A stretch of DNA of 64,000 bases, from assembly GCA_964030475.1 (NCBI GenBank), contig CAXIPT010000004.1, positions 4,580,211 to 4,644,210 of the forward strand. The letters run 5' to 3'. This document shows, piece after piece, positions 8,164 to 44,679 of the stretch. Below the pieces are notes generated by a model. That model had not been told where the DNA came from, ran no database searches, and saw only the letters and a program-made list of their open reading frames with translations. This DNA comes from Tethya wilhelma (lineage: Eukaryota; Porifera; Demospongiae; Tethyida; Tethyidae). The stretch's first letter is position 1; each line of letters opens with the position of its first letter. The position numbers and the translations under genes are program-made.

Positions 8164-8210
8164 GTGAATATATAATTTTGAACTTAATTTATAATTATAT
8201 TTATTTTTAT

Positions 8211-8216
8211 AATAAA
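8211..8216 (+). terminator. Polyadenylation signal AATAAA of the cathepsin gene
   Basis: A canonical AATAAA lies 48 bp after the cathepsin stop codon. The convergent OPLAH stop is about 250 bp further on, so the two 3' UTRs are short or overlap. Confidence 0.7.
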
Positions 8217-8466
8217 AGGGGATTATTATTATTGACTGATATTACTTTCTTATGCTGACTCTGCACACACGTACATAATAATAATTAATTTTATTATCTC
8301 CCTTATATCTTTTAAAGTTTGTACAAGAAGTGAAAATTTTAATTAAGAAATCATGTGCAATTATAGTGCAATAACAAAAATAATTTACAATAATTTATTA
8401 TTCAAGTTAGAACATACTTATTGTCTAGATCTGGTGGTACTGTGCAGTACTGTTACATGTATAGCA

Positions 8467-11400
8467 TTAAACAGATTCCTGCATACTCTTGAAGGTGGCC
8501 ACACTTCCAGTTGGGTAAAGAGAACCGTGCTTCATTTCAGAGGTGGATGATCTTGAAGCACTAGCCCAGGAGGTATCTTTCAATTTGTCACCAAATCCTC
8601 CCCCACCAGGAGTTTCCAAGTGAAATATAGTCTGAAACAAACACCATTATAGGATGAAGTACCCATGCATGTTTGTCACTATCATCATCCCTGCCCAACT
8701 CGTTAAATCTGCCAACATTGCTTCAAAATTAATATAGTATCAGGACCTCAACTAATCTGACCCAGCTATAGCTAGGAGAGAGAGCTAGGGGCCAATTAGC
8801 ACATACAAAGAGATGCCATTACAGCCGAGCGCCTTAGCGCAAGGCATCTAATCACGACGTATGGCTCAGTTTGCCAGCAAGTGTTTTAATATAATAACAA
8901 TTATATAGTAAAAATTTCAATTTCATAAAAAAGAGCAGTGCTGTAAATAGTAAGGAAACAAGGCATGCATGTCGCAATTTCGGCACATGACTACATTTTC
9001 ATTTTAACTTCCTCAAGCATCCTGTCGTATTAAATATTAATAATTATGATGAGCATTGTTTGAATCATAATTATTAATATTTAATATGACAGGATGCTTG
9101 AGAAAGTTAAAATGAAAATGTAGTCATGTGTCGAAATTGCAACATGCGGCTATGATTCAGTAAGCCCAATCAAGTGGTCTTCCGCTCTTCTAGCTCAGTG
9201 TATATGACATGATTATATGCACAAATCACTGAGTCATTGATTCATAACACAATGATTGCTCACTGCATCATCATTAGATATCAATACTGTACAAGTGGTG
9301 AAAGCAAAGCTAGCGCGAGGCACTATTTTGCACAATGTGTACTCCTAGTTATAATACACTCCATAATGTTATCTGAGAGATAATTGTGATATTCATAGCA
9401 AAATTTAATATCTTTACAAAATTATTGTTAGTTCCCTGATAATCTTACTTACCTCAGGACTGACATCTACAGATTTCTTTCCTCCTAAGTCTACAGGTCC
9501 ATTAGCTGTAATTAAAACATTTCTACCTTTAGCACCATCAGATCCACCTGCAGTTATAATGAATGAATAATATGTTATCGTAACGTTTAGTATGTATAAT
9601 GAAAATTTAACAATGTACCATCAGTGTAAATTGGTCAAATATTCAAAAACTGATATAATGCACCAAGATTTTGACGTTATTATTCTAACTGCCACGCCCA
9701 CAAATTTATTCTTTAGCAACAATTGCGTTCAAGTTTGTCAGTTAGGAAGGAAGAAGAAAAGCACTGTTCTGTCCTCCTGCAAGCGCTCTCTCCAGAGTGC
9801 TCCAGAAAGTTTCCACGAGTTTTGTTAATGCATGCAGTTAGAAAACTACTGTACTGGGAATAATTATTTTATGGAACATACCTTCCATTCCAAAAGGGCT
9901 GAACACCCTTCGTTCAGTGAGAACAGACAGAGTGAGAGGCTTCCTAAACATCATCTCCCGTACTACACCATCACCACCTCTGTACACTCCATCACCACCA
10001 GTACCCTCATTCAGCTGAAAACGAACCAAAATTACTGGATACCTGAATTACAAGGAGAATATATAATAAATGGAATCTCTGACTCAAGTTTTGGTATGTT
10101 ATGCACATGGACTGAACCTTGTTAAAAAAAGATACTTCATTACAGCAATGTACATAATACCTGATTAACATGTACCTGCGTTCCAAAATTTCTGGGTCAG
10201 TGATTCTGGTGTTTGTCATATTAGTGTGAACCCCACTACGACCATGCCAACTGGGACCCTGCATGGTCAAGAACAGAAATGGAGAATTATACACATGTTC
10301 ACACAAAGGCTAAGATACTGAGTGGGTAGCTAGTGATGTGTAGCAGGTGTCAACGTACTGCTCCAGCTCCCCCTGCAACAGTCTCATAGTAGCCAAACGT
10401 GTCATCTCCAAATGTTGTGTTATTCATGCATCCTTGTGAAGCAGCACATATCTTGAAAGCTTTGAACACAACATCAGCAACTCTTTGACAGGTCAGCACA
10501 TTCCCACCAATGACAGCTGCAGTGTCCGATGGATCAAGAATACTTCCCTCAGGAATAATGACTTTAATAGGCTGCAAACATCCCTACACACAAGAATAGA
10601 GAGGATTGCACACTAGCCTGATTCCCAGAGGTACTTTGGGGTTGGTGTACCAAAGCTAAATTATGAGGTGACCATGCTAGCATAACACAAATCACAAAAT
10701 GTAATGTACTCAGGCCATGGAAAACTTGCATGGAGCAAGACCAATATGGTACAATAATTAACTTATAAATACAAATCTTTGATAATTTATGACAAACAAG
10801 AGAGCAGACTACACACAACTTATCAACCATGAACAGTATTACTGTGTTTACCACAATAGCATAATATATTTAGAGTATCTGACACAATATTATACACTTC
10901 TAAATTACTTCATGAAACTAATTGAGTTATATCAGTTAGGACCAATACCTGATTGAGAGGGACATCATGTCCAACCATACATCTGAGGCAGTAAATTAGA
11001 ACTGAAAATGTAACAGCTCTTGGGGCATTGCAGTTGCCATCTGTAATCTGAGGTCCTGTACCAGTGAAGTCAAATAGTGCATTTCCCTGCCACAGAAAAC
11101 AACATTTAATATAAACAAGTTTCAGGAAGAGTAGTAGATTAACAAGAACATCGTGATTAAACTAACATCATCATTTATTTCAATTTTCAAGGTAATCTGT
11201 GACCCGTCATCCATACAGTCACTAGCTCTAAGCACTACAGATGTACAGTCTGCTCTCTCCTATGCAGTAATAGATACATAATATATATTATTATCATAAT
11301 CCAAGCTCTACTGATTATCACATGTACCTTGTTTTTCTCCAGTACATACTTCAGTACTTCCCTCACGGATAACTCAGAATTTTCCTGAGAATTGAAATCG

Positions 11401-22875: not shown

Positions 22876-23062
22876 GGTCTGCCGGCTGATCAGATCTTGA
22901 GGCTGAGGAGATCAACATGGAATAGCACTGAGTTATTGATTGACCACGTGGCCATGCATGGTTTGACCTCTTGGTTTGACCTCTGACCATTAATTAACCC
23001 TTTTATCACTCTTTTCATCACTCTCTCTTTACTAGCTGAAGGGCAGCTAGGAGTTATAAATT
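22876..23062. promoter_or_regulatory. Divergent promoter region, OPLAH / BPHL
   Basis: This 187-bp gap lies between head-to-head start codons. It includes a direct repeat of gtttgacctc and tgacc words near 22960-22986, and a cacgtg E-box at about 22945. No TATA box is apparent on either strand. A bidirectional promoter is inferred from spacing. Confidence 0.5.
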
Positions 23063-23968
23063 ATGGCAGTTCTGCTTGTAAGATCATCTGTAGGAAAATT
23101 ATCGAAATTCTACTTCAGACGATTGCATACTTCTGGCAAATTCAACCCTCAAGCAGAAATCCATAGCCATAGCCATTGGCCAATTCGTGTTTCTTCTTCT
23201 AAATTCAGCAACATGTCAACTCAATTGCCACACTATGAAAAGAGAGGAGATGGCGAGTATCCTATACTCTGTATTCCAGGTGCTCTGGGTAGTTCAAAGA
23301 CTGATTTTTCTCCACAGCTGGATTATTTTGGGTGCGAAGGGAGTAAATTTACTATCATTGGATGCGACCCACTTGGATACGGATATTCAAGACCCCCTGA
23401 ACGAAAGTTTGAAGTCTCTCCTGTATCATTTTATGCCTTAGATGCTCATGATGCCTACAATGTTATGCAAAGCTTAGGTTTCTCCAAATTTTCTCTCTTA
23501 GGCTGGAGTGATGGTGGTATTTCAGCCATCATACTTGCTGCTTCCTATCCAGAGTCAGTTTCCAAGCTAGTAATATGGGGGGCCAATGCATACATTACTG
23601 ACAAGGATCTTGAACTTTTTGAAAAGGTGAGAGACATTTCTTCCTGGAGTCCAGCTATGCGAAAGCCCTTAGAAGACCTCTATGGTCCCTCATTTCAAAC
23701 GCTGTGGTCAAAGTGGATTGATGCTATGCAAAGTATTCAATCAATAAATGATGGTAATTTGTGTGTGCAAGAGTGTGCCAATGTACAGAGCCCGACTTTA
23801 ATAGTACACGGAGCCAAAGATGCAATGTGTCCACAATTTCATGCCGAGTACTTGAACAAACACATAAAGAGTAGTAAATTAGAGGTTTTTCCAGAAGGAA
23901 AGCACAATCTCCACCTTAAATATAGCAGTGACTTTAACAAGATGGTTGAAAAGTTTCTACTTGAGTGA
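23063..23968 (+). CDS. BPHL: Valacyclovir hydrolase / biphenyl hydrolase-like protein, intronless
   Basis: Alpha/beta hydrolase that cleaves alpha-amino-acid esters in vertebrates. The single open frame of 301 residues aligns along its length with the BPHL family: PGALGSSKTDF, GWSDGG, KLVIWGANAYITD, HGAKDAMCPQFHAE and PEGKHNLHL. The catalytic triad is Ser149 (GWSDGG), Asp253 (HGAKDAM) and His281 (GKHNLHL). The basic, Ser/Arg-rich first 50 residues before MSTQLPHYEK look like a mitochondrial presequence, as in the mammalian enzyme; Met51 is an alternative start. Lack of introns is unusual in this intron-dense window. It is divergent from OPLAH and convergent with the NLR gene (275 bp between stops). 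Confidence 0.96.
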   Translation: MAVLLVRSSVGKLSKFYFRRLHTSGKFNPQAEIHSHSHWPIRVSSSKFSNMSTQLPHYEKRGDGEYPILCIPGALGSSKTDFSPQLDYFGCEGSKFTIIGCDPLGYGYSRPPERKFEVSPVSFYALDAHDAYNVMQSLGFSKFSLLGWSDGGISAIILAASYPESVSKLVIWGANAYITDKDLELFEKVRDISSWSPAMRKPLEDLYGPSFQTLWSKWIDAMQSIQSINDGNLCVQECANVQSPTLIVHGAKDAMCPQFHAEYLNKHIKSSKLEVFPEGKHNLHLKYSSDFNKMVEKFLLE

Positions 23969-24243: not shown

Positions 24244-27200
24244 TTAATATTTACAATATTCTTCCTCTATCTCACTTGCCAAGAGAGGGTTATTAATAAT
24301 CTCAGATCTTAAAGCTTCAACAATAATTTTCCAAGTACATTTGAGTTCAGCAGTAGACTCTAACCATCTTTTTATCAGTTGAGTAAAACAACTATCCGGC
24401 TGATAGAAATTTTCTACCTTAATAGCGTCCAGTGTACCAACATCAATGTTTAGCTCAATTCCAATATTGTACCATTTAGCACGGGCACTCCACATTGCAC
24501 TGAGAACTGTTTTTGCGTCTTTGATAGTTAAATATTCCTCTGCAAAAAGCATTGATAATCATCACAATGGTTGGCTTTTCATGCATGTATACATACTAAA
24601 GAGACTATTAGTATGTAATCAACTTGTGAACAAACCATAAACTTAAATAAAGTACAGTATATAGCCGGTTATTTTGGCGGGAATTAAATTTGGCGAAAGG
24701 GAGCTCAATTGGTATTGGTGAACTTTAATTTTGGCGAATGAAGCATAGAAAGCACATTACGTCATACGGCAAAATTGTATGGTAGCTATGCGTATATGCC
24801 TTCCTTTTGTTTTGCATTTACTAAAGTAGATTTGACAAAGCTTTTCAAGTCATGAAGGTAAGCAACAATCAAAAAAACTGTGCTGAAAGCCTTCTTGCAT
24901 GAATAGTGAAGCTTAATTCTGGCAGTGTAAAAAAAAATACGGGAGGGGCTAATGCACTACAATATCGCCACACAAATAAAGCTTTTGTTTTTAGCCAGGC
25001 AACCAAGCTTTCAAAAGCGATGCTATTGCTTTATAGCCTAAGAATCCCTGCACCTATGTAGCAAGTTTCAATCTTATTTCATGAAGGACTGTGTAGAAAC
25101 GTTGTACCCTTCTTCAGTGGTGTAGCCAAACCAGGGCGTACCAGGGCCTGTGCACTACTACCATTAGTTCACGGTGCCCTACCAAATTACCAATCAGTTG
25201 GCAGTCCGTTTATTCAGTATGAACTAATGTGCACAACAAGACTGTAATTTCAATGGCTGAGACTGATAATGACTGATGTAGCAAGTTTAGACCGTTCTCA
25301 AATGGTATTTTCAATGCCAAATTCTCAAATGGTGGTTCGAAGGTCGATAAGCAAAAAAGGGCGTAGCTCAATTGCTAAAGCGTTGCTTTAGCGGCATCAG
25401 TGCCCTACCAACTGTTAGTGTCTAGCTACACCACTGCCCTTCTTTCGGGATTGTGCTAGCGCATATACGAATTTCATATTCAGGCAATCAGATTAACTTT
25501 GACGATTGGAGAAATTCGCCAATTATGCCAAAATAAAATCCTCGCAAAAGCTTCCAGCTATACGGTATATTATAAGATTTTAGACAATATTGCATGATAA
25601 AGGTAAAAGTAGGTACCGTTGGGCATTCTTCTTTGTGGGATACCAATATCTGTTTCTTCATTGGCCTATAATAGTATGCAAAAATTACAATAATTAGATC
25701 AATTAGCAATATTATGATTCACAGGAGTCTCTCAATGTCCTCTGGCAATGCATAAAAGCTTTGGAAATGTAATGAAAAATAGGAAAAGCATAAGGGAATA
25801 AAGCATACTTTTAAGAATTCTTCCTGTGGCATGCAGCATGATGATAATGTGTTACATAGAAGAATTCGAGCCAATTCAAGCTATTATTTCCCATTTTTTC
25901 AAACTGTGGCTTCTCACTAAGCACTCTTCCAATTGCTCTAGAATATAGCTACAGTATGCAGACGGACGTGTATGCAATAACTCATACTAGTAAATACATC
26001 GTCTATTTGTTGGATATTAGGAAAGTTATTTAAAAAAAAAGGGAACAATTTCAGACCAATTAAGAATCTTCATCATATTAAGACATGCATACTGATCACT
26101 GGGAAATTACATTACATAAATTAGCTTAGAATTCTGAATTCTACAACTGCACACCCATTACAGACTGCATGATAATTTCTAACTTATCCTTGAGCAGAGA
26201 ATTACACTCCCTTGTGGACAATGTACGTGCACATCTTAATTATTTTGTACTGAAGTAAAGTAACTAAATGAACTAAATTCTCAAACGAATACAATCTCAT
26301 GTCTAACGTGAGAGGGCATCAGTGACTTAGACAACAATACATGCCCTCTAGTATTCTTTAGTGAATTAATAGCAATTAAAATAATTTCTAAACTCTACAC
26401 ACCCTGTTGTGGGTAAATCATGTCTCAACTAAAAAGATGTGCAGCTATAGTAATAAAAAACAGCCTTATTAGAGATACACAACTATAAATAGACATGCTT
26501 ATACTCAAGAAAAACAGATTAACTTTTGCTACTTTTCAGACAAAATCCTACAAACTATAGTAGAAAATGTCATCTTTCACTTTCTATCTAGTTCTAGTCA
26601 CCACTATAGCTAGTGCTGTCAACTTCAGAGCCAGTGTCGCAATTAGTAAAAATTATGTAGCAGTTCCAATACAACGAGAGACTACTCCATTGCCCACAAC
26701 AGAACAAAAGACCACTCCTCTTCCAACAACAGGTGACATCACTAGCAGTAGGAATTTCAAAGTGAGTGCAGCAGCATCAGTTGAAAAGTACAAACCTCAC
26801 ACTTTGGAAGGTGCATGTCCTAATTTGTTACATAACAGTGAACTCAAGAAATTCAAGACTGAAATAATCTTTACTATCAGAACACTGATTGAACAACTAT
26901 TTGAGAAGACATTACAATCCCCTACAACCATTTCTTCGTCAGCAATAGAATAGAGTCTGACTACTGAACAGTATGAGTCAGTTCAACAACCCTCCATGGT
27001 TCACAAAGGACCTACACAACCCTACAACTGATGATATTGAGCTACGTCTCTGTTTAAATACTGCCATTCAACGCAGTGATGTGTTACTGGAGTTGATAGA
27101 ACTTTACATACAATAGTTGTATTGAGACTTTAAGTTGTTTGATACTTTGGAAATCCATACAGTTAACTATTAGAACAAATGAGATCATAATAAAGACTTG

Positions 27201-30200
27201 TTTGTTTATTGTGTGTGCTGAATGGGATACTATACTATTACATGTATACATAGTGCTAGCCCTAATTCTTTGATCAGGCCTTGATTATTTTATTGATCTA
27301 CATAATGCACTGAGTACATAAAGAATGTAGTTGAATGCACACAATGTCATATACACATGTAAACTGATAGCTTGCAAAGTAGCCATAGCTAATCTGCAAG
27401 CATTCGTGATGGCATACAGCAACTCAAAGACTAAACTTTGCCCCTGGGAATAGTTCACAAGGGTAGTGAAAGCCTGCATGGCCACTCAATGAGAGACACA
27501 GAAAACTGCAATCTCCAAAGCACATGAAAACATCAAGCTAGTTGTTCAAGAATCAGCTTTTGAAATCTGAGAGGGTCAAGCCAAGGCAGAAGAAGAAGAC
27601 AACGACAATTATTTACTTTGATATTAATTATTAGCACACCATGTTTTTCACAAGAATATTTGTATTGTGCAGATGTACCATTCCTAAGTAACTAGTAGCT
27701 AAATAATATGTGTATACCAAAATACATCGTACACTATGGCATTATTGATATTATTGTCATGTTCATACCTCATTTGTGCCATCCCTTTCAATGAGGAACC
27801 TACTCATGGTGCTGTCACTGAGTGAATTCAAGATGAGGTCAATTTCTGACTTTGACTTATTAATCAATGATTCCTGATCAACCTACAACAGCAAAGATTA
27901 CAAGAAACCAACATTATACTGTAACAGTATACATTCATATCTGTATAAAAATTAGGTTGATTTCTAAAATGTTCTGATCTGCCTAAAATCAAATCTCACA
28001 AGAACTAACGTGGACACTACGATCGGAAATCAATTATATCAAAGCTCCAGGTACTGTGGCAATGGAAGATATCATAGGTTGCCTTTTTAATATCCCAAAA
28101 ATTTTATAGTATAATATTTACTTCTTCTATAGTACAAAGTGCATGAGATATAACTGTTATAGACAAAATAAGTGACAGCTCATTTCTAAAGTTCTAAGTA
28201 CTTCGTTTCTTGGTTCTAAAGCTCAATTTGAAAACATGTATGTATTTGGACAGATCTCAGCAAGAAGAATAGTTTATGTATTTTTACCTAATCCATGTCT
28301 TCAAACTATATAACCAATATTCAATAGAAGTGCCAAAATAATTATTTTCGAATGGAAATTAATAAAGGCAAATGTATCAGCCACTGCTTTGTTACTAAAA
28401 CAAAAACCTTACAATTGTATTCATGTAATACCTTCAATATTCTGTCTCCAACTCTGACACCACCTGATCTGTCAGCAGTGCTTTCAGGTGTGATGTATGT
28501 AATCATGGCCCCAGAATAACCCCAATGAGCTGCTTCGTTAAATTCAAAGCCAAATACACCTGTTGTGTAGATGGAACATCAACAACAATCAACAGAGGAA
28601 GACAATGTTGACCAGATCACCTAGATACAGTGCTAGAAATAATTTGAAAACTACCGTATAGCGGATAAACTTGGCGAGAGTTATATTTGGCGAAAAAGTA
28701 CGCTGCATAGTTTATATGGGTGCACGTGCATATTAAACTGTTTTTTAATTTGCCGATTTGAGGAATAATTCGCCGGAATTGAATCGCCAAATTAAAAATC
28801 GCCAATAATCCCAAAATAAGAATTCACCAAATTTTAAGCCCGCCAAATTTACCCGCTATACGGTAATCTAATTTGAACTTAATTTGAAACAAGCTTAGTA
28901 AGAAAAGTAAAAAGAACGTTTTTTTGTTTTTTCTTTCTCTTGTTTCTCTGGTGATCCTTTAGAATAAAATCTAAAGATTTCACCATGTAGTACTATCATC
29001 ACAAAGTAAAGCCAAACGATTTATGAGAATAAAATTTGTTAAAACCTATATATATAATTATATCATTGTTAGCAAATCAGCAGAATTTGTTTCTCTCAAA
29101 AATGCCCTATTACAGTATACAGACTCATACACTGGAGTAGAAATTTACTACACACAAACATCATTGATTCACATACCATTATCGTCTTTTTGCATGTCTA
29201 GTTGAATGTTGAAAGGCCGTGGATAGGGGCGCCCTGGAGTAATACCAATAAAGAATAGGCACATGAGAATAAGATTACATGATCGTGCCTAAACATACCT
29301 AAAACAGGTAGGTGATCCATATAATGATATCCAGTCTTGGACAGCAATTGAGACTTCAAATCAAACTAAAATATATTTACAACTCATAAACCTCCACAAA
29401 TACAACAACGAAAGAACAATCTTCATTAAACTTACGGATGATTCTCTTTGGAACATTTTCAATGAATCTATCCTTGGTGGTACCTGAACTCTACGAAGAG
29501 AAACCAAGGGTGTTAATAATTCAGTAGTCCACATCCACTATGCAACTAATTTAACAATTAACGCACAAAATGACTACTGAGACACTTGGCTAATACCATA
29601 TAGCTAGTATCTGTAGCTGTACATTACTAAACTAGGACTAACAACAGATAACTATCATAAGACTTTTCCCACACTGTAAGTTGGAGATAATTGAGTCAAA
29701 AAAATTACAACTACAAATATTTACTTCTGAAGCACTGTCCAGGGTTTTCGTGAATATTTATACCCCCAAAAATTACCCACCATACGGTACATGCTTCAGC
29801 ACAGAGGGTTAAATATAATAGACTTACAAACCTTAGTACTTGCTGACTGATGGTATCAAAGCGGATGAATGTGTGCCTGAGTGAATCATTACGTATCTGC
29901 TTGCCAGCCATGTAGCAAGATGTACACAAATCAAAGTCCCAGCATTGGACGCACTTCCACCTCATTCCTAGAAGGGGCTGCTGATCACAGGAATCACAAG
30001 CTACATATTGGTGCTCTAATCCTGCAAAAAATTTCAAGAATACACATAGACTAGTCCAGAGATATACATGCAACACTGTTTTGTAAACTTGAGATAGAGA
30101 TTACTTTCTCAGGTACTTGACGTTTGAATTTTACAGGAGAGATCATTAATTTTAGAGAACACAATCACGTATTTACATGGTACAGCTAAGTGTGAAGAAA

Positions 30201-33200
30201 AACGGGAATTTTTGCATTAAAATTTTATTTTAAATTTTACTACCAATCAAACATTCAACATCATCCATTCAAACATGAACAATGAAGTGGTATACCTAAA
30301 CTCACCTGAAGGGGCATTGTCGATGATCCTAAGATCAAACTTTCCATCAATGCCACAGCGATATTGACCTGTGTTTCCTGAGTCCCATTTCACGAGAACA
30401 TATCTACCGCCATCATGACACCCACTAATCTTCATGATAGTTCCTATGCAGCCCTCTGCTCCGTCTTCATCGGCTGACTGCCAATCTGGACCACGAACAA
30501 CTCTCAAACCAACAGAGAACACCTAGACATAATTATATATGCAAATGATGGTTTCAATTGGTGTAACTCTGTGAAGCCAGGGAAAATGCCAAGGATTAAA
30601 GATACATATACTCTGGCAGAGAAGTCCTTCTGTCAGGTACAAATTTTCTACTATTGATAAGTCCAAAGATTACTATTGTGAAGGGTGCTCACTTGTGCTG
30701 CCACATTTCACCCTTGAAAAACTTCACCATGGTTAAAACAATACTAGCTGCTTGTATACAGATCTCATAGCAACAGCAGCAGTGAGACAATCACATTGTA
30801 TTTCAATATATCAGAACACAAACATTCACAATAATTATTGGGCATTGTCATAGTTGTTTATAGACACTACAATAGAACGGGAAATTGTTTAATTTTTGAC
30901 AGATACGAAAAAATTTTAACGGCAAAAATTTCCCGATATACAGTTTTTCATTTTTCCCATGTGCATGCTCAAATGCTGAATATGCCTCACATGTGCAAGA
31001 AAGGTAAAAGTTTCAGTAAAAATATTTCCAAATCCTTTTGAAACTATGCCACATACACAATCAATCAAACTCACATTTTTCAACAAGGGAAGAGTAATCA
31101 CAGTTTTGTTCACAGTGTTCACTTGAATGCCATCAGTGACGCTAATTGTCAGAGGAACATTGGCATAATGGAGCAAGATGAAGAGAAGAAAATCAGATAT
31201 CAGTTGCCTCCAAACAGGCTCGTTGCAGGAATGAGCTCTTGATGTCTACAAATGAATTAACAGCATGTATCACAACTTTGAGTATTTGATACTGTTCAAA
31301 ACAACTATGGTATCATTGTTGCTTTGGATAAAAGAAACTTAATTCAACCATGCTATAATTCTATCTTTACATGTCTTGCAATTTTATCCTTACAAAGATT
31401 CATACTTTAGTAAATTGTGAAAACAAACCAGTTTGGGAGTGTTAAATGTAGCCTTCAGTCAATAAATATGCAAGTCTATGCAAACTTGTTTCTGGGGGAA
31501 ATTGCCCATTAGCAATATAAACTGAATTTGTAATGCTATAGTGAGCAACCAAGTGAGGGAGATCTAATATAGCATACCTGTACAGAAACTTGGGTCTGAA
31601 TCACCTTGGAGGATATACTTCTAGCTATACGCCAGTTTTCAGCAGACTTCCTGATAGTTTTAAGAGCCTATAAAATGAAGTTAATACAATACTAAAGGAG
31701 TAGGCTTTTTGCAAGTGATGAAGCACATCCTTGTACACTAAAAACTTATGTATGCTTACCTTATCAAGCTTAGACTTTGTATCACTGCATATATTAGAGT
31801 TGTTTTCAATGACTACAGTTGCAATGCGGGGAAATAGAAGTGGCAGTTTATCTATGAGTGCATCAACACCAAGATCATCTAAAGCATTCCCTGTCAGTAG
31901 CCACTTCCATACGTGACTCTTTGCAGCATTTTGCACTTGAGATAGCTGGTCAAGAAGAATCTTCAGATCATCAGAAGTGATACCACAACATTTGCAATGA
32001 AGAAAATCAACATAAGGGCAGAGATAGAGTAGACCAACAAGCACATTTATACTTTCTTGAGTGAAAATGTTCTTGTCAAAATAAACGTATTTGATCATTG
32101 ATTTACTTTGTGGCATTTCCAATAGTTGCCCAACAACTACATTCATTGGTACATGAGGATGTTCCTCTAAGTGCTCGGTAAGATGGCACATTTTCAGGCT
32201 GTATGCCTCAACTCTACATTCGTTGGCAACAATAAGTCGACTAAGAGGCAAAACTCCATTTAAACCAATGGAATTCCCGTCAAGAAAGAAGGACTTGATT
32301 CTAATAGTACCGCTAACTACTCTGTCGGCTAACAATGAGAGACATCTGCTACAGATACTGTTGTCTTCGATAGAAAGAAACTCAAAATATATATGACCAG
32401 AAAGATTGCTAGTGAGAGACTCTACACCATCAAAGCCTAATGAAGTTTTTCTCAAACCCAAAGTGATTGGCCTTTGGTAGTAGGACAGCCTGGACAAGGT
32501 ACTTGCTAATGATTCAAGCTCACGTGAAGTCAGAGCATTCTCTGAGATATCAAGGGCATATAACTTGCAGTAGCTACCTAAAGAGTCTAAAAGCTGACAA
32601 TTAACTTCTGGATCGCTAGATAAAGACTTCACTAGCCAAAGTGTGGACAAATTAGGAAGCTTATGATCACACACCACACCATTCAAAGACTGTATTCCAG
32701 ACACCCCTAATGGGCAACTGGAGAGGTCTAACATACTCAACTTGTTGGATGAGAGAGTATTGACTAGTGAAGATGGATCATCAATCATGTTGCCGCTAAC
32801 ATCTAACACCAGCAGTGAGTATCGAAAGATTTCCAATGCTAGAGAAAATAAGGTCAAAAGCCCTTCATTGGTCAGCTTGTTGCCTCTTAAAGACAACTCA
32901 GACACCTGGAGCTCAGTTGATCTACCAGATAGTAACTTGCCTACTTCACTTACTCCATCGTCACCTAGCTCTGAATTGTCAAAGTTAATCAGAAGGCCAG
33001 GGGCAAGATTAGATTGAGATAGTACAGTTGCTACAGCTACACAGTCGTGTACAGTGTGGGCTTCGTAACTCCCTTTGAGAGCTTGAGTAACTTCGAAGTA
33101 AACCTCTGGATTGGTAGCTTCAAGAGCACAGTGGCAAAGTAAAGCCCGCTTCTCCATTAATATTTGCAAAATGGACACGACAACGCTGTTGGAGAGAGAA

Positions 33201-34537
33201 GTAATCTGTGAACTTACAAGCAAAGGGGCGTAGGTTATTCCAAAGAGAAATCTCCACACCATGTGAAATCGCTTGGAATTAGCATGGAATCTACAAGCAC
33301 GTATTTTCACATTTGGTGGTTGTACTGCAAGGTGTAGCGAAGCTAGGTACTCTTGGAAGGTGAGGTGAAGGAAGTGAAAAGAAGGAACACGTCCAGCCAC
33401 ACCAGACTTACGGGAGTCTGCCCTCTGCAACAAGCCAAATTTGAAATCATCTTTCTTCATTGCTTCAGGCAGCTCTTCAATTGAGAACAGCTGCTGATTC
33501 TTTTCAATAGCATAGAAGGCAAACTCACACAAATTCCAAAACGTGCTCTTCAGATCGAGAGGGATAGAATCAAAACTCTGGAGAGATGGAGTGGTTTCCT
33601 TGTGCTCAGGGAACTTCCGGTGGATATCACGAAGAATGATGTTTAAAATGATGTTGCGATACAGACCACTGAATGTAGCAGGAATTTGGTCATCTTCAGA
33701 GGTGCGCCACAACTGGCAAATTATTGCACAGTTGAGTGGAATACTACACAAGCTAGCAACAAGGGGCTTTTTGCTTAATTGTTCAATAAGAACGGCAGCT
33801 TTCTGAGGCTCATCAGCCATTTCCACCTCAATAAACTCTTTCACATCTTCTTTACTAAATCCAAAGATTTCAATGCATCGATCAATACAGCGAACTTTGT
33901 GGAGTGATGCAGAAGCAGATGGTCTAGATGTAACTAGCAAAGATGCTCGTGAAAGGAATTTACGTGTAACAAGCTTGTACATGAAAGATCCTTCTTGACG
34001 ATCGCTGTCATCAAGCTCATCCCACCCGTCCAGAACTATAAGAACTTTTTCACTATTAATGGCAAGAAGCTCTTCTCTAGATAAAGTGTCAACACTTTCA
34101 TCTAAGTACTTGATAAGATCTACAACAGATCTTGCTGATGCAACCTCCTTATCTCGTAAAGGAAAATGCAACAACAGCTCAAAGTTTTGGAGCACCTCCT
34201 GGTTAGCCCAGTCTTCTGCAGTCTTCGCACAAAAGATCGTCTTACCTGTTCCAGCATCTCCTTCTACAAGAACTCTTAGTACTTTTTTCTTGGTAGATTT
34301 TGGAACAAAAATATCTGCTAAATCAATTGGTGTCCTCTTGAGCTTATCAGTCTTCTCGTCTTCTTCACGTGCTTGACCTCTCTGCCAGTTTGCTGCATAT
34401 CCTTCTTCTTTTTCACTCTCAACAAGCTGCAACTTGATGAGCCTCTCTCCATGAAACAGCTCCTCTACCAAACTCAATCTTTCTCTGTAAGCATCCTTGA
34501 TTGTATCAATATCGACAAAATCTCTGAAGGAAGCCAT
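24244..34537 (-). CDS. NLR-type receptor: NACHT-LRR-MIB/HERC2-ZZ-PDZ-Death, 1403 aa
   Basis: Twelve minus-strand exons join in phase: 34537-31760, 31667-31578, 31245-31075, 30522-30306, 30021-29832, 29490-29436, 29365-29299, 29233-29177, 28559-28432, 27882-27769, 25665-25617 and 24539-24244. They total 4212 nt including TAA. Exon 1 (926 aa) has a short N-terminal region, a NACHT domain (Walker A GDAGTGKT 93-100, Walker B VLIVLDGWDEL 165-175, LVTSRP 201-206) and LRRs (about 540-890, e.g. LSLRGNKLTNEG). The following positions are approximate. A linker follows (927-1013). MIB/HERC2 is at 1014-1085 (GLRVVRGPDWQSADEDGAEG). ZZ is at 1089-1145 (CDSC, CVQC, DLCTSC). PDZ is at 1192-1285 (carboxylate loop FGFEF, then GVRVGDRILKV). 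Death is at 1308-1395 (KWYNIGIEL, TLDAI, LIKRWL, TWKIIVEAL). A cytosolic immune-sensor/adaptor role is inferred. Two adjacent genes would be the alternative. Confidence 0.8.
24658..25568. mobile_element. taccgtatagc-family MITE enlarged by a nested hAT-like insertion
   Basis: The left edge tatatagccggttattttggcg and the right edge ccagctatacggtata are degraded forms of the family ends, with ttggcgaa / ttcgccaa words inside. The interior contains a separate insertion at 25115-25436. It lies in the last intron of the NLR gene. Confidence 0.5.
25115..25436. mobile_element. hAT-like MITE (322 bp) with 8-bp target duplication
   Basis: The termini are cagtggtgtagcca and tagctacaccactg. Directly flanking direct repeats cccttctt (25107-25114 and 25437-25444) are an 8-bp target duplication. 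CAGTGG-type ends and 8-bp duplications are typical of the hAT superfamily. No transposase is present. Confidence 0.8.
26484..26491 (+). promoter_or_regulatory. TATA box of the intron-nested gene
   Basis: A tataaata motif lies 83 bp upstream of the ATG at 26567. With an AATAAA at 27189 it suggests a separate plus-strand transcription unit inside an intron of the minus-strand NLR gene. Confidence 0.45.
26567..27116 (+). pseudogene. Nested secreted-protein gene, probably frame-disrupted
   Basis: The open frame 26567-26953 (128 residues) begins with a plausible signal peptide (MSSFTFYLVLVTTIASA), followed by Thr/Pro-rich sequence (TTPLPTTEQKTTPLPTT) and GACPNLLHNSELKKFK. After its stop at 26951-26953, a different frame reads MSQFNNPPWFTKDLHNPTT, DDIELRLC and LLELIELYIQ before a TAG at about 27114. 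From memory this kind of tail (DDIELRLC ... IELYIQ) occurs in secreted sponge proteins, so the two pieces probably once formed one protein now broken by a stop and frameshift; an unrecognised intron is the alternative. It lies in NLR intron 25666-27768 on the opposite strand. Confidence 0.4.
27189..27194 (+). terminator. Polyadenylation signal AATAAA of the nested unit
   Basis: AATAAA lies about 75 bp after the apparent final stop of the nested secreted-protein unit and is followed by a T/G-rich stretch (gacttgtttgtttattgtgtg), the usual arrangement of an animal poly(A) site. Confidence 0.5.
28652..28865. mobile_element. taccgtatagc-family MITE, complete copy
   Basis: The left end taccgtatagcggataaact and the right end aatttacccgctatacggta form inverted repeats. 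The interior carries tttggcgaa and gaatcgccaaatt words. It is inserted in the NLR intron between the two PDZ-encoding exons at 28559 and 29177. Confidence 0.75.
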
Positions 34538-37996: not shown

Positions 37997-39194
37997 CTAT
38001 TCTACTTCTAACCCGACCAAATTTGCACTATACTCCCACAACCTCTTACACGCTTCATCATCTAGAGCTCTACTTGCAGGTTTCTTGATAGCACACGAAT
38101 CCCAATACACACCATCTTGTCCTCCTACTTCAGGTGCTATAGCACAATGTAGAGGGGTCTGGGCACCTTGCTTCAATGTCTTCGTGAAAAGGTACATGGC
38201 TATATGAGCAATAGGCTGGGGCAAAAACGAATAAGAATAATTACAGGTATTATAAGACTGTACACATAAACCCAAAAGACTAAAATTTACATCTATAGCC
38301 ACATTATTCAAAGAAACATAAATGGCCCACTGAATCATTTTACTACCATAGTTTTGAAAACTCTATCATCAGCATGCATTCATTCAGTGTACCAATGCAG
38401 ACAAAATTTCCGAATCTTACCTTCAAGATGATGAGCCATCCAGAGAGCAAGTGCCGAGTTATTTCTGTGTATACAGTCCCAGGATGAAGTGAACACACAG
38501 TTACTCCACTTCCTCGGATACGTTTTGCTAGCTCTCTTGCAAACATAATGTTAGCTAACTTACTTCTACAGTAAGACAACTGAGGACTGTATTTTTTCCT
38601 CCACATCATGTCATCAAAATCGAGGTAGCCCGCCATGTGAGCCATTGAAGCCACAACTACGATCCGGCTAGGAGAGCATTCCTTGATTCGGTCAAGTAAG
38701 AGGTTCACCAGAAGGAAGTGACCAAGGTGATTTGTACCGAACTGCATCTCAAAGCCATCTTCTGTGAGGCAATATGGGGTGAACATTACACCAGCGTTAC
38801 AGACGAGGATGTCAACTCGAGGCTCATCAGTCAAAACTTTAGAAACAAATGTGCGTATTGATGCACACGAAGCCAAATCTAACTTCCTGAAGAAAACATC
38901 GTTGTTACCACTCTTACTGCGTATACTATCAACAGCATATTCAGCTTTAGTCTTGTTTCTGCAGGCGATTATAACTCGGCCTCCTCTACAGGCCATCTCA
39001 AGGGCAGTCTCATAGCCAATGCCAGTGTTCCCACCTGTTATTATGATAGTTTTACCATCTAAGCGTCGTTTACTTTTGCAAGCAACTCCATTGACTAAAT
39101 ATATTCGAATGAGATAGTAGAGAATAGGAAGTGATCCAGACAGAGTCAGCAATAACCATGGATTAGAGAGACTGATTCTATCAAAGTATAACAT
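37997..39194 (-). CDS. Retinol dehydrogenase-like short-chain dehydrogenase/reductase (RDH11-14 / DHRS type)
   Basis: NAD(P)(H)-dependent SDR of the RDH11-14 group, membrane-anchored oxidoreductase of retinoids or other lipophilic carbonyls. Two exons (39194-38421 and 38215-37997) join in phase 0 to 330 residues. An N-terminal hydrophobic segment (about residues 12-35) would anchor it. The cofactor motif TGGNTGIG is at 53-60, NAG at 133-135, the catalytic Ser at 183 (VASMAH) and YCRSK at 208-212. The C-terminus (DGVYWDSCAIKKPASRALDD, then RLWEYSANLVGLE) matches the group. The open frame running past 38421 reads into the intron. The substrate is not deducible. Confidence 0.93.
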
Positions 39195-39899
39195 TGTTCG
39201 ATAACTTGAGTACGCGGGCCTAAAAGAATGATTAGGAATAAATTAAGTTGAGAATCATAACAATTACAAAGTGATATGCACGTGCAGTGTATCAGTTGCT
39301 ACGCTTTTGTGCTTCCAACGCTGCAAGATGCTAACTTGCGATCAGGCTCTACCCTAATTTACTACTAGAGGAGAGTCTGTATAGTTTTTTGGACAATAAT
39401 ATTGATTTTAATTTACATTACAAGAATTGTTAGTGAACCTGGAAATATTACTATTGACAATTAACTATTTTCCCTGAGGATAAGCTCATGCAGAACATCC
39501 AGTGACCTAGCAAGAAAGGGTCTGGTGTCCAGACTAGACACTTGTAACCTTTGCTTCAGCCACACCCCTCAAATTATATGGGGCAGAAACTGTCAATCTA
39601 TATATTCTATTAGACAGTCTACAGAAATTATTCTACGCACAATAAAATATTTTTTACTTACTTTATTGAGCTCAAGAATTGTAGCTAGAGTTGAAAACTT
39701 GAGATTGCAATTGAAATACACGACTGGTTTTTCACGTGACAAATGTCATGCGATATCGCGATGCCTTCACGATCACGTCCCACCCACGTAGATAATTTTA
39801 AAATAATTATTATGGTTATTAACTATTATTAACAATAGCTTCATAAAATTAATATTGACTTCAGTTTCATTACTGCAATAATAAAATTTTACTCTGGGA

Positions 39900-41129
39900 C
39901 TAATGGCTACTAACAACAGCAGTGTGGTAGTATGAGCAGTCCACCATAGTAATTGCCGACTTTGGCAATGCATCAACTCTTCTAGGAACATCACACCTGA
40001 ACAAATATCGATGACCTTTAGCCTCTGGATGTCCTAAGCGTCCATCACTGCCACATCCCCAAGTGAAAACACTTCCTTCTCTCGTAACTGCTGTGCTGTG
40101 TATCCCACCACAAGCCACGCCTGTCACACACTCTCCTCCAAACGTGCCAGGATCAATCTTGGTTGGTACATCTCTTGACTCTTGATCATTATGACCTAAC
40201 TTGCCTTTGTATCCATCTCCCCACGAAAATACATGTCCGTCATTTGTACACGCAAGGGTGTGACTGTGACATTCTCCCAAAGAGCAGCTAGCATTAACAA
40301 CCACCACACTAGACAGAGCTGCAACAACTTGCAGTGTGTCTCTGTCAGATTTACCACCTTCTTTACTACGACCTAGTCCAAGTGCACCATCACCTCCACT
40401 TCCTACAGTCATTAGTCGGCCATTATCTGTAATCACAGCTGCATGAGAATACCCACAGGAAACAAATGAAACTCTGTCATCATTTGGCACTTGAACATGA
40501 GTAGGAAGAGTTCGATCATTTGTATCACCATGACCAAGTACTCCATGAGCTCCTGAGCCCCACGACCAAACTGTTCCATTGATACCGATAGCATAATTGT
40601 AATTGAATCCACAAGCAACATGTTTGAATCTCGTACATTCAACCGGAGGGGGAACTCTCACAGGGATCAACTCAAATGGAGAGGCTCTACCTAGTCCAAG
40701 AACTCCATGTGACTTGTTGTAGCCCCAGATATAAATTTCACCCTCACCAGTCACACAGGCAGCATGCCAGAAGCCAGCTGATACTTGGGAAACCTCCAAT
40801 GGTGCAACCAACTCCACTGGAATGCTATGATCTTCCTCTGATCCTGTGCCTAGCCGACCATATTTCCCCCAACCACAAGCAAAGAGTCTCTTAGAATGAT
40901 TTCCATCCTTAGCTGTTACACGACACAGGGCAATAGTGAAATGAGCACCACAAGTGACTTGTAGTGGGTTGGTGCTACGAGACAGTTTCATGACTTGAGG
41001 TATCTCTGCAGTGGCACTCTTACCGTCACCAAGTTGACCATACTTACCAAACCCCCAGGTGTATACAGCCATTACACAACAGAAACCTATATGGATAATA
41101 ATTATTGCAATTATAACTGCTATAAACAC
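39900..41129 (-). CDS. RCC1-repeat beta-propeller protein, intronless
   Basis: Single-exon protein of 409 residues, or 390 from an internal Met (41072) that starts MAVYTWGFGKYGQLG and looks the more natural start. The upstream 19 residues are very hydrophobic and would act as a signal or anchor if used. RCC1-type repeats follow in sequence: FACGWGKYGRLGTG, YIWGYNKSHGVLGLG, WSWGSGAHGVLGHG, TVGSGGDGALGLG, FSWGDGYKGKLGH and FTWGCGSDGRLGH, a seven-bladed propeller in all. Such propellers mediate protein interactions, as in the RCC1 and HERC families. No other domain is attached, so a specific function cannot be assigned. The stop is at 39902-39900. Confidence 0.92.
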   Translation of the reverse strand: MFIAVIIAIIIIHIGFCCVMAVYTWGFGKYGQLGDGKSATAEIPQVMKLSRSTNPLQVTCGAHFTIALCRVTAKDGNHSKRLFACGWGKYGRLGTGSEEDHSIPVELVAPLEVSQVSAGFWHAACVTGEGEIYIWGYNKSHGVLGLGRASPFELIPVRVPPPVECTRFKHVACGFNYNYAIGINGTVWSWGSGAHGVLGHGDTNDRTLPTHVQVPNDDRVSFVSCGYSHAAVITDNGRLMTVGSGGDGALGLGRSKEGGKSDRDTLQVVAALSSVVVVNASCSLGECHSHTLACTNDGHVFSWGDGYKGKLGHNDQESRDVPTKIDPGTFGGECVTGVACGGIHSTAVTREGSVFTWGCGSDGRLGHPEAKGHRYLFRCDVPRRVDALPKSAITMVDCSYYHTAVVSSH

Positions 41130-41819
41130 AAAAAATAGGCCATCTTTATTGACGACTAATTAGCTTAATGAGGACTTTGTAAGTATACACTTATAGCATT
41201 ATAAAAATATTATCCCAACCATGGAGCTGATTGACAACTCTTCAAGGCATGCTTAGTACTTGAATGCCACACATCAAAAGTGACAAATAGATTGCAATCA
41301 GTGCTACAGCACAATCATATCAGAACATATGCATGCAGGCACGATTCTTTTTGCAACCGAATGTCAAGTAACAATTCTACTAGAGAAAGGGAGGCCTGAT
41401 GATCTAAGAGCCAGCTTAATTTTTTCATAGGAAAATGTGTTTTAGTCTGGTATAGACAGGCACATCCCAGATCAATGGCCCACAAAATATTAATGTCAGC
41501 ATGAATTTAAAGGTTGTATTGCATGGAAGCGGCAAGTTTTTGAAAAAAATGGCCCAAAAATCAATACTGAAATTTCCTTGGTTGAAAATACATCATTGGA
41601 ATGCAATTTATGTGTACGGTCTCCTATTCTCTTGTTGACGACATGCACAATATGGCTTCACTATGCGATGTAAATTACTATGCATACAACTTCCGTGCAA
41701 TAGCACGTACCTTTGTGACCTGCATGTGTGAATTGGCATACGAAAGAAATTCAATCACCCATCTTACGGAAATCTACATGATTTTGCCACTATAAACATC
41801 CATACCTGTAGCTACATAC

Positions 41820-43647: not shown

Positions 43648-44679
43648 ATGTTGCTTATCTGTATTCTGATGGTACTGTGCTGTTCAGCATTGACCAAAGG
43701 TAATCCAGTGTACCCACAAAATTCAGAATTGCACAGCAGATCTATTGTGTTAAATAATAATTGTTGTTGCAATATTTTTTTTTTTCGATAATGAAATTGT
43801 GATTTTATAATTTCAATCAAAACAGGTACCGTGACTCACAAGGAAGATGGTGCAGCGATGGAAAAGGAACAAAAAGCTGTTCAAGCACAAAACCATGCTA
43901 CAAGTATCAATGTTGAAGATAAAGTGAAAGAACAAGAACCAATTGGATATGAGCAATACGACTATGCCCTTGAGGAAGACTACCCCCTCAATGGATTGGA
44001 TGATGCAAGTGAGCAGTGGTGGTGGAGACACTGGAGAAGGAGACACCAAAGGAGGAGAAACCAAAGGAAGAGAAACCAAAGGAAGAAAAACCAAAGGAAG
44101 AGAAACCAAAGGAAGAGAAAAAGCAAGCAAATTAGACAGGTGAAAACAGCTGGTGTTACGTACACTAGATTTGGGAAATCGTCATGCCGTCGAGGTGCTG
44201 AAGTGGTGTACAAAGGAGTAGTAGCTGGCTCATGGTATTATCACAGAGGGGGAGGCTCCAACTATCTCTGCCTGCCTGATCATCCAGAGTACTCTAGCTA
44301 CCGACGTGGTGTACAAGGCTATTCTTACTTATATGGTACAGAGTATGAAGGTTCAATATTGGGTGGTAGGAATAACCACAATGTACCATGTGCTGTATGC
44401 TATGTTCCTAACCGTTCAACAAGCCTCATGGTCCCTGCCAAGATCAACTGTCCTCGCTCATTCACTAAAGAATATGTGGGATACATTATGTCAAATTATC
44501 GTGGTTACTATCGCACAGAGTTCATATGTGTTGACAAGGATCAAGAGATGTTACGTGGAAGTAGCCGAAACACAAATGGAGCCTTGCTGTACCATACGGA
44601 AGTTGCCTGCCATTATGGAATACCATGTTCACCTTACAACAGGCAAAAGGAGCTGACATGTGTTGTGTGCTCCAGGTAA
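43648..44679 (+). CDS. Short-chain (spongin-type) collagen C-terminal-domain protein with a basic repeat instead of Gly-X-Y
   Basis: Secreted extracellular-matrix-like protein. Exon 1 (43648-43699) encodes the signal peptide MLLICILMVLCCSALTK. Exon 2 (43826-44679) continues in phase; the total is 301 residues. After an acidic segment (about residues 50-75: EQYDYALEEDYPLNGLDD) comes a 15-nt tandem repeat giving NQRKR units (about 43 residues, strongly basic). The C-terminal domain of about 170 residues follows with the sponge short-chain collagen signature: YTRFGKSSC, HRGGGSNYLCLPDHPEY, NHNVPCAVCYV, MVPAKINCP, NTNGALLYH and ELTCVVCSR, with about ten cysteines. Family members that I recall carry a Gly-X-Y stretch where this one has the basic repeat. 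A matrix role is inferred. Confidence 0.88.
44040..44120 (+). repeat. Coding 15-nt tandem repeat (ggaagagaaaccaaa)
   Basis: About five imperfect copies of a 15-nt purine-rich unit. All three plus-strand frames stay open through it: NQRKR in the gene frame, PKEEK-type and TKGRE-type repeats in the others. A frameshift on either side would therefore convert a basic tract to an acidic or Gly-spaced one without stopping translation. Confidence 0.75.

Follow-up and report, generated by a model that had tools for sequence, protein, structure and literature searches.

A 64,000-nucleotide stretch of the genome of the sponge Tethya wilhelma (contig CAXIPT010000004.1, positions 4,580,211 to 4,644,210; hereafter the window) contains what is very probably a single gene for a NOD-like receptor (NLR) of unusual composition, in which a NACHT domain and leucine-rich repeats (LRRs) are followed by a linker, a MIB_HERC2 domain, a ZZ zinc finger, a PDZ domain and a C-terminal Death domain. 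The gene consists of 12 exons on the minus strand between positions 34537 and 24244, which join in one open frame of 4209 nucleotides, equivalent to 1402 amino acids and a stop codon, and all 11 introns have GT-AG borders and compatible phases. These exons, borders and the single frame had been described in an earlier reading of the same DNA, made from the letters alone and referred to here as the sequence-only reading; its figure of 1403 codons includes the stop. Domains were assigned by Pfam searches of the joined 1402-residue protein with the curated cut-offs, and some parts were also scanned alone. The resulting architecture looks undescribed within the literature and databases searched. 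It is best explained, with about even confidence on our part, as one gene of a small NLR subfamily that combines a C-terminal Death output with a docking module.

The linkage of the receptor part to the tail was assessed by means of sister loci in the assembly of 124.6 Mb and 204 contigs. The Pfam MIB_HERC2 family yielded 34 genome matches in 21 clusters, and 102 of 176 NACHT candidates were scored. A MIB match lies downstream of four of the 102 NACHT matches on the same strand, at distances of 3065, 3428, 3628 and 3766 nucleotides; these four pairs represent the window gene and the loci L062, L063 and L064, and uniform placing would be expected to give 0.034 pairs within 4 kb. The same order of NACHT and MIB was detected behind a frame-shifted NACHT exon at a fifth locus, P6 (C2:8246501-8260300). 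Since these copies are related, they do not count as five separate events and may trace back to one fusion. The NACHT-LRR exons of the paralogs share 31-35% identity with that of the window gene, yet the adjacency of NACHT and MIB is retained. Additionally, L062 yielded a complete 12-exon model of 1455 amino acids, comprising NACHT-LRR, linker exons, MIB, ZZ, a second MIB, a spacer and Death, with intron phases equal to those of the window gene at the shared junctions if the latter uses the exon 5/6 junction 29832/29490. Identity between the two genes amounts to 59% in the MIB exon, 45% in ZZ, 40% in Death and 33% in NACHT-LRR. On the basis of the recurring spacing and the L062 model, the assumption of two adjacent genes joined on paper was set aside as very unlikely, and the one-gene linkage of the sequence-only reading is borne out.

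A number of observations nevertheless weigh against this interpretation. The gene model was read from genomic DNA alone. Exon 1 contains an in-frame stop in L064 and a frameshift in P6, and the MIB match of P6 is without the first 11 profile positions. No ZZ domain was found in L063, whose Death domain is weak (Pfam 0.075), and the DNA fetched for L064 and P6 yielded no Death domain. At two further loci, L065 and L066, the 10 kb read showed the tail and no NACHT exon, L066 having a run of N upstream. The linker belongs to the same set of observations. It is encoded by exon 2 (31578 to 31667; residues 927-956) and exon 3 (31075 to 31245; residues 957-1013), both with GT-AG borders and phase 0-0; an exon at the same place as exon 2 is present in L062, L064 and L065, and positional counterparts of exon 3 in L062 and L064. 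The sequence likeness of these exons to the paralog linkers is weak. A genome search with the L064 linker exon gave four matches, in L064, L065, P6 and about 3 kb behind the NACHT match at C2:8276262, and did not find the linkers of the window gene, L062 and L063, which correspond to that of L064 by place, phase and weak pattern only. Exon 3 includes a hydrophobic stretch with a best mean hydropathy of 1.68-1.87 over 19 residues in three copies, a possible membrane helix.

The disruption of exon 1 in two of the four other NACHT+MIB loci, together with the poorly conserved linker and the genomic origin of the model, would suit an artefact or relic, either two neighbouring genes connected on paper or a pseudogene that is not expressed. 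The recurring NACHT-MIB spacing and the intact frame of the L062 model speak against it, as do the intact frames and splice sites of the window gene and a relative of its exon 1 with a full-length open frame; we regard this explanation as the most improbable of those considered here. The relative in question, database protein P0067, is 73% identical over 100% of exon 1, which argues against the window gene being a decaying copy and suggests that the receptor has been kept in at least one other organism. The nearest named relative of exon 1 is from Halichondria panicea. With respect to the sister loci, the DNA upstream of the linker and MIB-ZZ-Death tail of L065 (C2:7621001-7631000) was seen by eye to hold endonuclease- or reverse-transcriptase-looking frames at the place expected for NACHT, and the gene end of L062 (last MIB exons, spacer and Death; 8170-9372) is tandemly repeated behind the stop, nearly letter-identical by eye.

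Exon 1 (31760 to 34537; residues 1-926) provides the start codon, a short N-terminal segment, the NACHT domain, a helical/winged-helix region and the LRRs. The NACHT domain was detected at residues 88-240 (Pfam 3.8e-23; 82.6 bits against a cut-off of 26.7), and the translation contains the stretches GDAGTGKT, LDGWDEL and VTSRP, which by their presumed roles we take to be NACHT motifs. The LRR_6 family was matched by the LRR part alone (1.1e-5; 25.5 bits against a cut-off of 23.4) and remained under this cut-off in the full-length scan, with 15.9 bits. An AlphaFold (AF2) model of exon 1 reached a mean predicted local distance difference test score (pLDDT) of 82.8, and its best fold matches include NLRP3, NOD2, NLRP9 and NLRC4; each of the 50 fold matches listed (E-values of at most 1.1e-17) is either an NLR structure or an oocyte complex that contains an NLRP. 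Residues 1-80 gave no Pfam match, and accordingly none to an N-terminal death-fold effector domain.

The first part of the tail corresponds to a module of Mind bomb, the E3 ubiquitin ligase of Notch ligands. Exon 4 (30306 to 30522) encodes the first MIB_HERC2 repeat (residues 1018-1080; Pfam 4.7e-18) and exon 5 (29828 to 30021) the ZZ zinc finger (residues 1089-1124; Pfam 9e-11), both above the curated cut-off in the joined protein. Exon 6 (29436 to 29490) aligns with the PPRAGAR..GIF exon of L062 and specifies the truncated start of a second MIB_HERC2 repeat; exon 7 (29299 to 29365) encodes its end (FDLK...YHYMDHLPVLG), and exon 8 (29177 to 29233; phase 1-1) is a spacer. Length and phases of exon 7 (67 nucleotides, phase 0-1) are identical in the window gene and L062, and a similar exon occurs behind MIB-ZZ at other loci. 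Pfam detects two MIB stretches in the tail of L062; the window gene contains only the ends of the second, the core exons (53 and 72 nucleotides in L062) being gone. Judged by this comparison, a second MIB_HERC2 repeat, now decayed, is represented by exons 6-8; it went unnoticed in the sequence-only reading, and the tail would thus derive from the MIB-ZZ-MIB module of Mind bomb. Exons 4-8 match the MIB1 structure 4xi6 at 2.4e-44, and the PDB matches of the ZZ domain comprise the ZZ domains of MIB1, HERC2, KCMF1 and p62. The junction of exons 5 and 6 had been placed at 29828/29483, which gives an open frame; homology with the paralog L062 makes 29832/29490 the more likely true junction, with the donor after 29832, and the window letters together with the L062 intron phases indicate that this choice preserves the frame and adds one residue.

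Neither a RING nor a HECT domain was found by Pfam in the joined protein, as had been stated before, and at E<=1 the protein was also free of ankyrin repeats and RING. An overlooked RING was sought in the window with one RING-like pattern on both strands in six unspliced frames, which gave no matches. Without a RING the protein itself would not transfer ubiquitin, and it may fairly be taken to recruit rather than catalyse. The ZZ fingers of the NLR tails (L011, L012, L013, L016, L017 and L020) share, in six of six cases, an extra stretch NDSLRH, NDSLEH, KDSLEH or KDSLDH before the last histidine, which is absent from MIB1 and from those other MIB loci in which a ZZ is visible (L002-L008 and L019). 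With the ZZ domain of p62 among the PDB matches, a function as N-degron reader was considered, and it is not claimed here. Clusters of MIB_HERC2 matches in long open frames at C7:5011226-5025722 (minus strand; 400-661 amino acids) and C1:16103741-16121550 (467-546 amino acids) represent MIB genes of another type than the NLR tails.

The PDZ domain is encoded by exon 9 (28432 to 28559) and exon 10 (27769 to 27882), each assigned by the Pfam PDZ and Scribble PDZ matches, followed by exon 11 (25617 to 25665), a 49-nucleotide micro-exon with GT-AG borders that is required to restore the frame. The Pfam match at residues 1199-1270 (1.2e-6) scored 29.2 bits against a cut-off of 23.2, and 33.6 bits when the part was scanned alone. 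The best PDB match was a Scribble chain, with 1.2e-8 over two PDZ domains and 9e-4 for the better domain alone. Exons 9-11 total 291 nucleotides with phase 1 at both edges and lie between the spacer exon and the Death exon, which adjoin directly in L062 with no PDZ between them. Among the paralog copies read, only the window copy possesses a PDZ domain, and searching the genome with this domain revealed no close copy, the best other match having an E-value of 8e-4. These features bear the mark of a cassette apparently inserted through exon shuffling, unless it was lost from L062; that the micro-exon has no counterpart in L062 is a point to the disadvantage of the gene model. A 129-amino-acid open frame with a hydrophobic, signal-like start (by eye) is located on the opposite strand within intron 10 (26564-26953, plus strand).

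The MIB-ZZ and PDZ domains may also be read as parts of a regulator of Mind-bomb clients, which would compete for Notch-ligand tails or other substrates and couple the state of the NLR to endocytosis or cell contacts, the PDZ domain anchoring the protein at polarity complexes. According to the available portions of the respective study, the MZM module of MIB1 binds the N-box of Jagged and Delta (PMC11887331), and the similarity of the PDZ domain to Scribble agrees with such an anchor. The window copy lacks the core of the second MIB repeat, so that the known peptide-binding mode may be lost, and the Death domain is left unexplained; this function is therefore considered improbable.

The Death domain is encoded by exon 12 (24244 to 24539), which includes the stop codon. 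While NACHT, MIB, ZZ and PDZ of the previously listed domains exceed the Pfam cut-offs, the Death domain scored 17.0 bits and is below its cut-off of 22.6; in addition, no Foldseek match of the exon 12 model, a short chain, reaches an E-value of 0.001. Both facts diminish the case for a Death output. The domain was accepted on the grounds of its relatives, a profile and the structural model. The homologous tail copy in L066 scored 31.6 bits and is above the cut-off, and 21 of 24 aligned Death rows, that of the window included, match Pfam Death at E<=0.01. A profile of the aligned rows finds FADD at 1.8e-4. The AlphaFold model is helical with a pLDDT of 91.6, and death domains make up its first 20 fold matches (probability 0.97-1.00, template-modelling score by query 0.55-0.71, E 0.06-0.9), with those of FADD, ankyrin and TNFR1 within the first nine (Foldseek E 0.06-0.2). 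The alignment was built from 20 fetched of 75 genome Death positions, the second L062 copy and L065 (stop in the piece) being left out; the window sequence is 39-47% identical to 16 of the 23 relatives and 24-38% identical to the other seven. The Death type of the tail belongs to a large family, as 75 of 110 genome matches to the tail, the window's included, lie wholly or mainly in Death.

The placing of this signalling-type domain at the C-terminus rather than the N-terminus, as originally proposed, is supported by the finding that exon 12 is the only significant Death match in the window; no second one was found. To detect a hidden N-terminal Death domain, the whole window was searched with a profile and with five death-domain queries; besides exon 12, only two matches of 26-27 residues near 52-53 kb were returned, with E 0.3. 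Comparing the 102 NACHT and 75 Death positions, a Death domain downstream of NACHT within 10 kb was detected only in the window gene and L062; one such pairing on contig C15 spans 12.9 kb, and a nearer NACHT partner exists. The usual N-terminal place, upstream of NACHT, is occupied in three genes of contig C15, at 1711, 1729 and 1980 nucleotides, and further pairs are separated by 2616 (C8), 3779 (C2) and 5571 nucleotides (C15). The C8 pair (C8:2768237) was doubted as a canonical case, since its Death domain is nearly identical to the tail Death of L066 and could be part of a gene lying upstream; the canonical arrangement is better illustrated by the three C15 genes.

A death-fold domain behind NACHT-LRR is also found in human NLRP1, where it is the C-terminal signalling part (PMC7483925, in the portions available), and the window gene has a ubiquitin-linked module directly preceding the death-fold part. 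Release of a C-terminal PDZ-Death fragment for signalling, upon degradation or cleavage of the N-terminal receptor, could be envisaged by analogy. The FIIND (ZU5-UPA), on which the release of NLRP1 is based, was not found by Pfam in the joined protein (E<=1) or in the linker alone (E<=10), and we rate such a release slightly below even the improbable regulator of Mind-bomb clients.

A mechanism for the C-terminal Death output with a docking module is proposed with slightly less than even confidence, much more tentatively than the very probable gene architecture. The LRRs and the NACHT domain would hold the protein closed until a microbial or damage cue releases it, whereupon the NACHT domains would assemble into an oligomer. 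The C-terminal Death domains clustered in this way could nucleate a platform of a death-domain adaptor or of a kinase or caspase, and the MIB-ZZ and PDZ domains would provide docking surfaces through which a client or a membrane scaffold is recruited to it, the RING-less protein transferring no ubiquitin of its own. NLR cores such as those of NLRP3 and NLRC4 are kept in a closed state, from which a cue releases them to assemble via NACHT, and the fold matches of the exon 1 model are structures of this kind.

The main rival to docking arms is an integrated decoy, a model known from plant NLRs with integrated domains. The MIB-ZZ module would then be a bait for a pathogen factor that attacks Mind bomb, and its binding or modification would switch the NLR on. 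Several features agree with this model: the tail is the detached front of a host-type ligase without its ankyrin and RING parts; the second MIB repeat is decayed and the PDZ domain is present here and not in L062, as would be expected of domains that need only resemble a target; and the MIB exon is more alike between the window gene and L062 than the ZZ, Death and NACHT-LRR parts. The same conservation would result from binding of a host partner or from recent copying of the tail, and a pathogen factor that acts on Mind bomb is not known to us from sponges, so that a decoy appears rather unlikely. A broader proposition combines both functions: the sponge NLR subfamily might be the animal counterpart of plant integrated-domain NLRs, with a captured Mind-bomb module as bait or client-docking arm, with modules such as the PDZ domain swapped by phase-symmetric exon insertion and with the Death output at the C-terminus. 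It is offered as a speculative possibility, marginally less doubtful than the decoy alone.

The origin of the module was examined with trees. The MIB-ZZ tree contained 24 rows, 16 of the 30 fetched genome loci and eight database proteins; L018 was labelled as an NLR tail with only its MIB exon seen. The eight NLR-tail rows form one group with support 89/89, which is short of the usual 95, and none of 500 label shuffles gave as low a value. This group adjoins other MIB genes of the genome and Geodia MIB2, and the window copy branches first. The single group indicates that a Mind-bomb-like gene was the source of the module and that the capture probably took place once. For the L062 tail, the best database match is a protein of Geodia barretti that carries the name MIB2, as do many other listed matches. 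The NACHT side runs counter to so simple a history. The larger NACHT tree places the five NACHT+MIB genes in one 13-row clade (100/99), which also holds L047, L053 and the tandem copy in L063, in which MIB was not seen, and five database proteins. The MIB label requires five changes on this tree, with 500 of 500 shuffles as low, and four changes on the first NACHT tree, with 264 of 500. By these counts the NACHT+MIB genes are not one branch on the NACHT side, and the tails may have been lost or moved, or may be unseen, in the other rows. The first tree kept 4 of the 30 fetched NACHT loci, its motif filter being too narrow; in the larger tree 12 of 30 loci were on the wrong strand, of which eight were dropped and four remain as a junk group.

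The architecture was compared with known systems. In Dysidea avara, bona fide sponge NLRs with NACHT and LRRs have been assigned to the classes NLRD, NLRC and NLRX, and a figure legend names Kix, TNFR, caspase, ubiquitin, Litaf and COR as partner domains (PMC12909245, available portions). The NACHT-LRR core and the use of Death, there in the NLRD class, are common to both; in the available portions of that source Death or CARD is N-terminal, whereas in the window gene Death is C-terminal behind MIB-ZZ-PDZ, and MIB, HERC2 and PDZ do not occur as words in the main text (PMC12909245). Human NLRP1, again as far as the portions available describe it, shares NACHT-LRR with a C-terminal death-fold domain (PMC7483925). 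It differs by its FIIND, CARD and N-terminal PYD, in place of which the window gene has Death, MIB-ZZ and PDZ. The MIB_HERC2-ZZ module is common to MIB1 and MIB2; in the window gene the second MIB repeat is decayed, REP, ankyrin and RING are absent, and the module is fused behind an NLR. PIDD1, an LRR-Death protein not known to contain NACHT, MIB, ZZ or PDZ, likewise has its Death domain C-terminal behind LRRs, and PDB chain 2of5_H, which we take to be PIDD1, is among the matches of the Death profile. Plant NLRs with integrated domains are similar in that fragments of host proteins are fused to an NLR, with NB-ARC rather than NACHT; homology of the fused pieces is not claimed.

Proteins containing both NACHT (PF05729) and MIB_HERC2 (PF06701) were absent among the 66 database proteins matched by the window tail, among the 120 listed of 957 proteins matched by the L062 tail, and among the 120 listed of 159 matches of exon 1, most of which look like unspliced frames and carry little weight. 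No such receptor was retrieved, within the portions of the sources available, when the open literature was searched for NACHT together with MIB_HERC2 or HERC2, or for sponge NLRs with Mib or Mind bomb. The designation of the architecture as apparently new is thus retained in the sense of undescribed and has to be given up in the sense of unique to this gene, as NACHT-LRR followed by MIB occurs at L062, L063, L064 and P6 as well. The C-terminal position of the death fold has a precedent in NLRP1 (PMC7483925, available portions), and, among the copies read, only the PDZ domain is peculiar to that of the window. The gene accordingly encodes an NLR variant, each principle of which has a precedent, the C-terminal death fold in NLRP1 and the fused host domains in plant NLRs.

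Little is known about the outputs of the large NLR repertoires of sponges. In an early animal lineage, a receptor family uniting a module of a Notch-ligand ligase with Death would be a concrete link between NLR sensing, ubiquitin and endocytosis, and cell death; it also offers a place to test in animals whether fragments of host proteins serve as bait within NLRs. The sister gene L062, being without PDZ, provides a natural comparison for the contribution of this domain. In long open frames neighbouring the gene, Pfam detected an alpha/beta hydrolase (23060-23968, plus strand), a short-chain dehydrogenase (38343-39242, minus strand) and RCC1 repeats (39900-41159, minus strand). A 294-amino-acid open frame at 43795-44679 (plus strand), with no Pfam match at E<=0.1, is characterised by a basic arginine/lysine repeat and cysteines.

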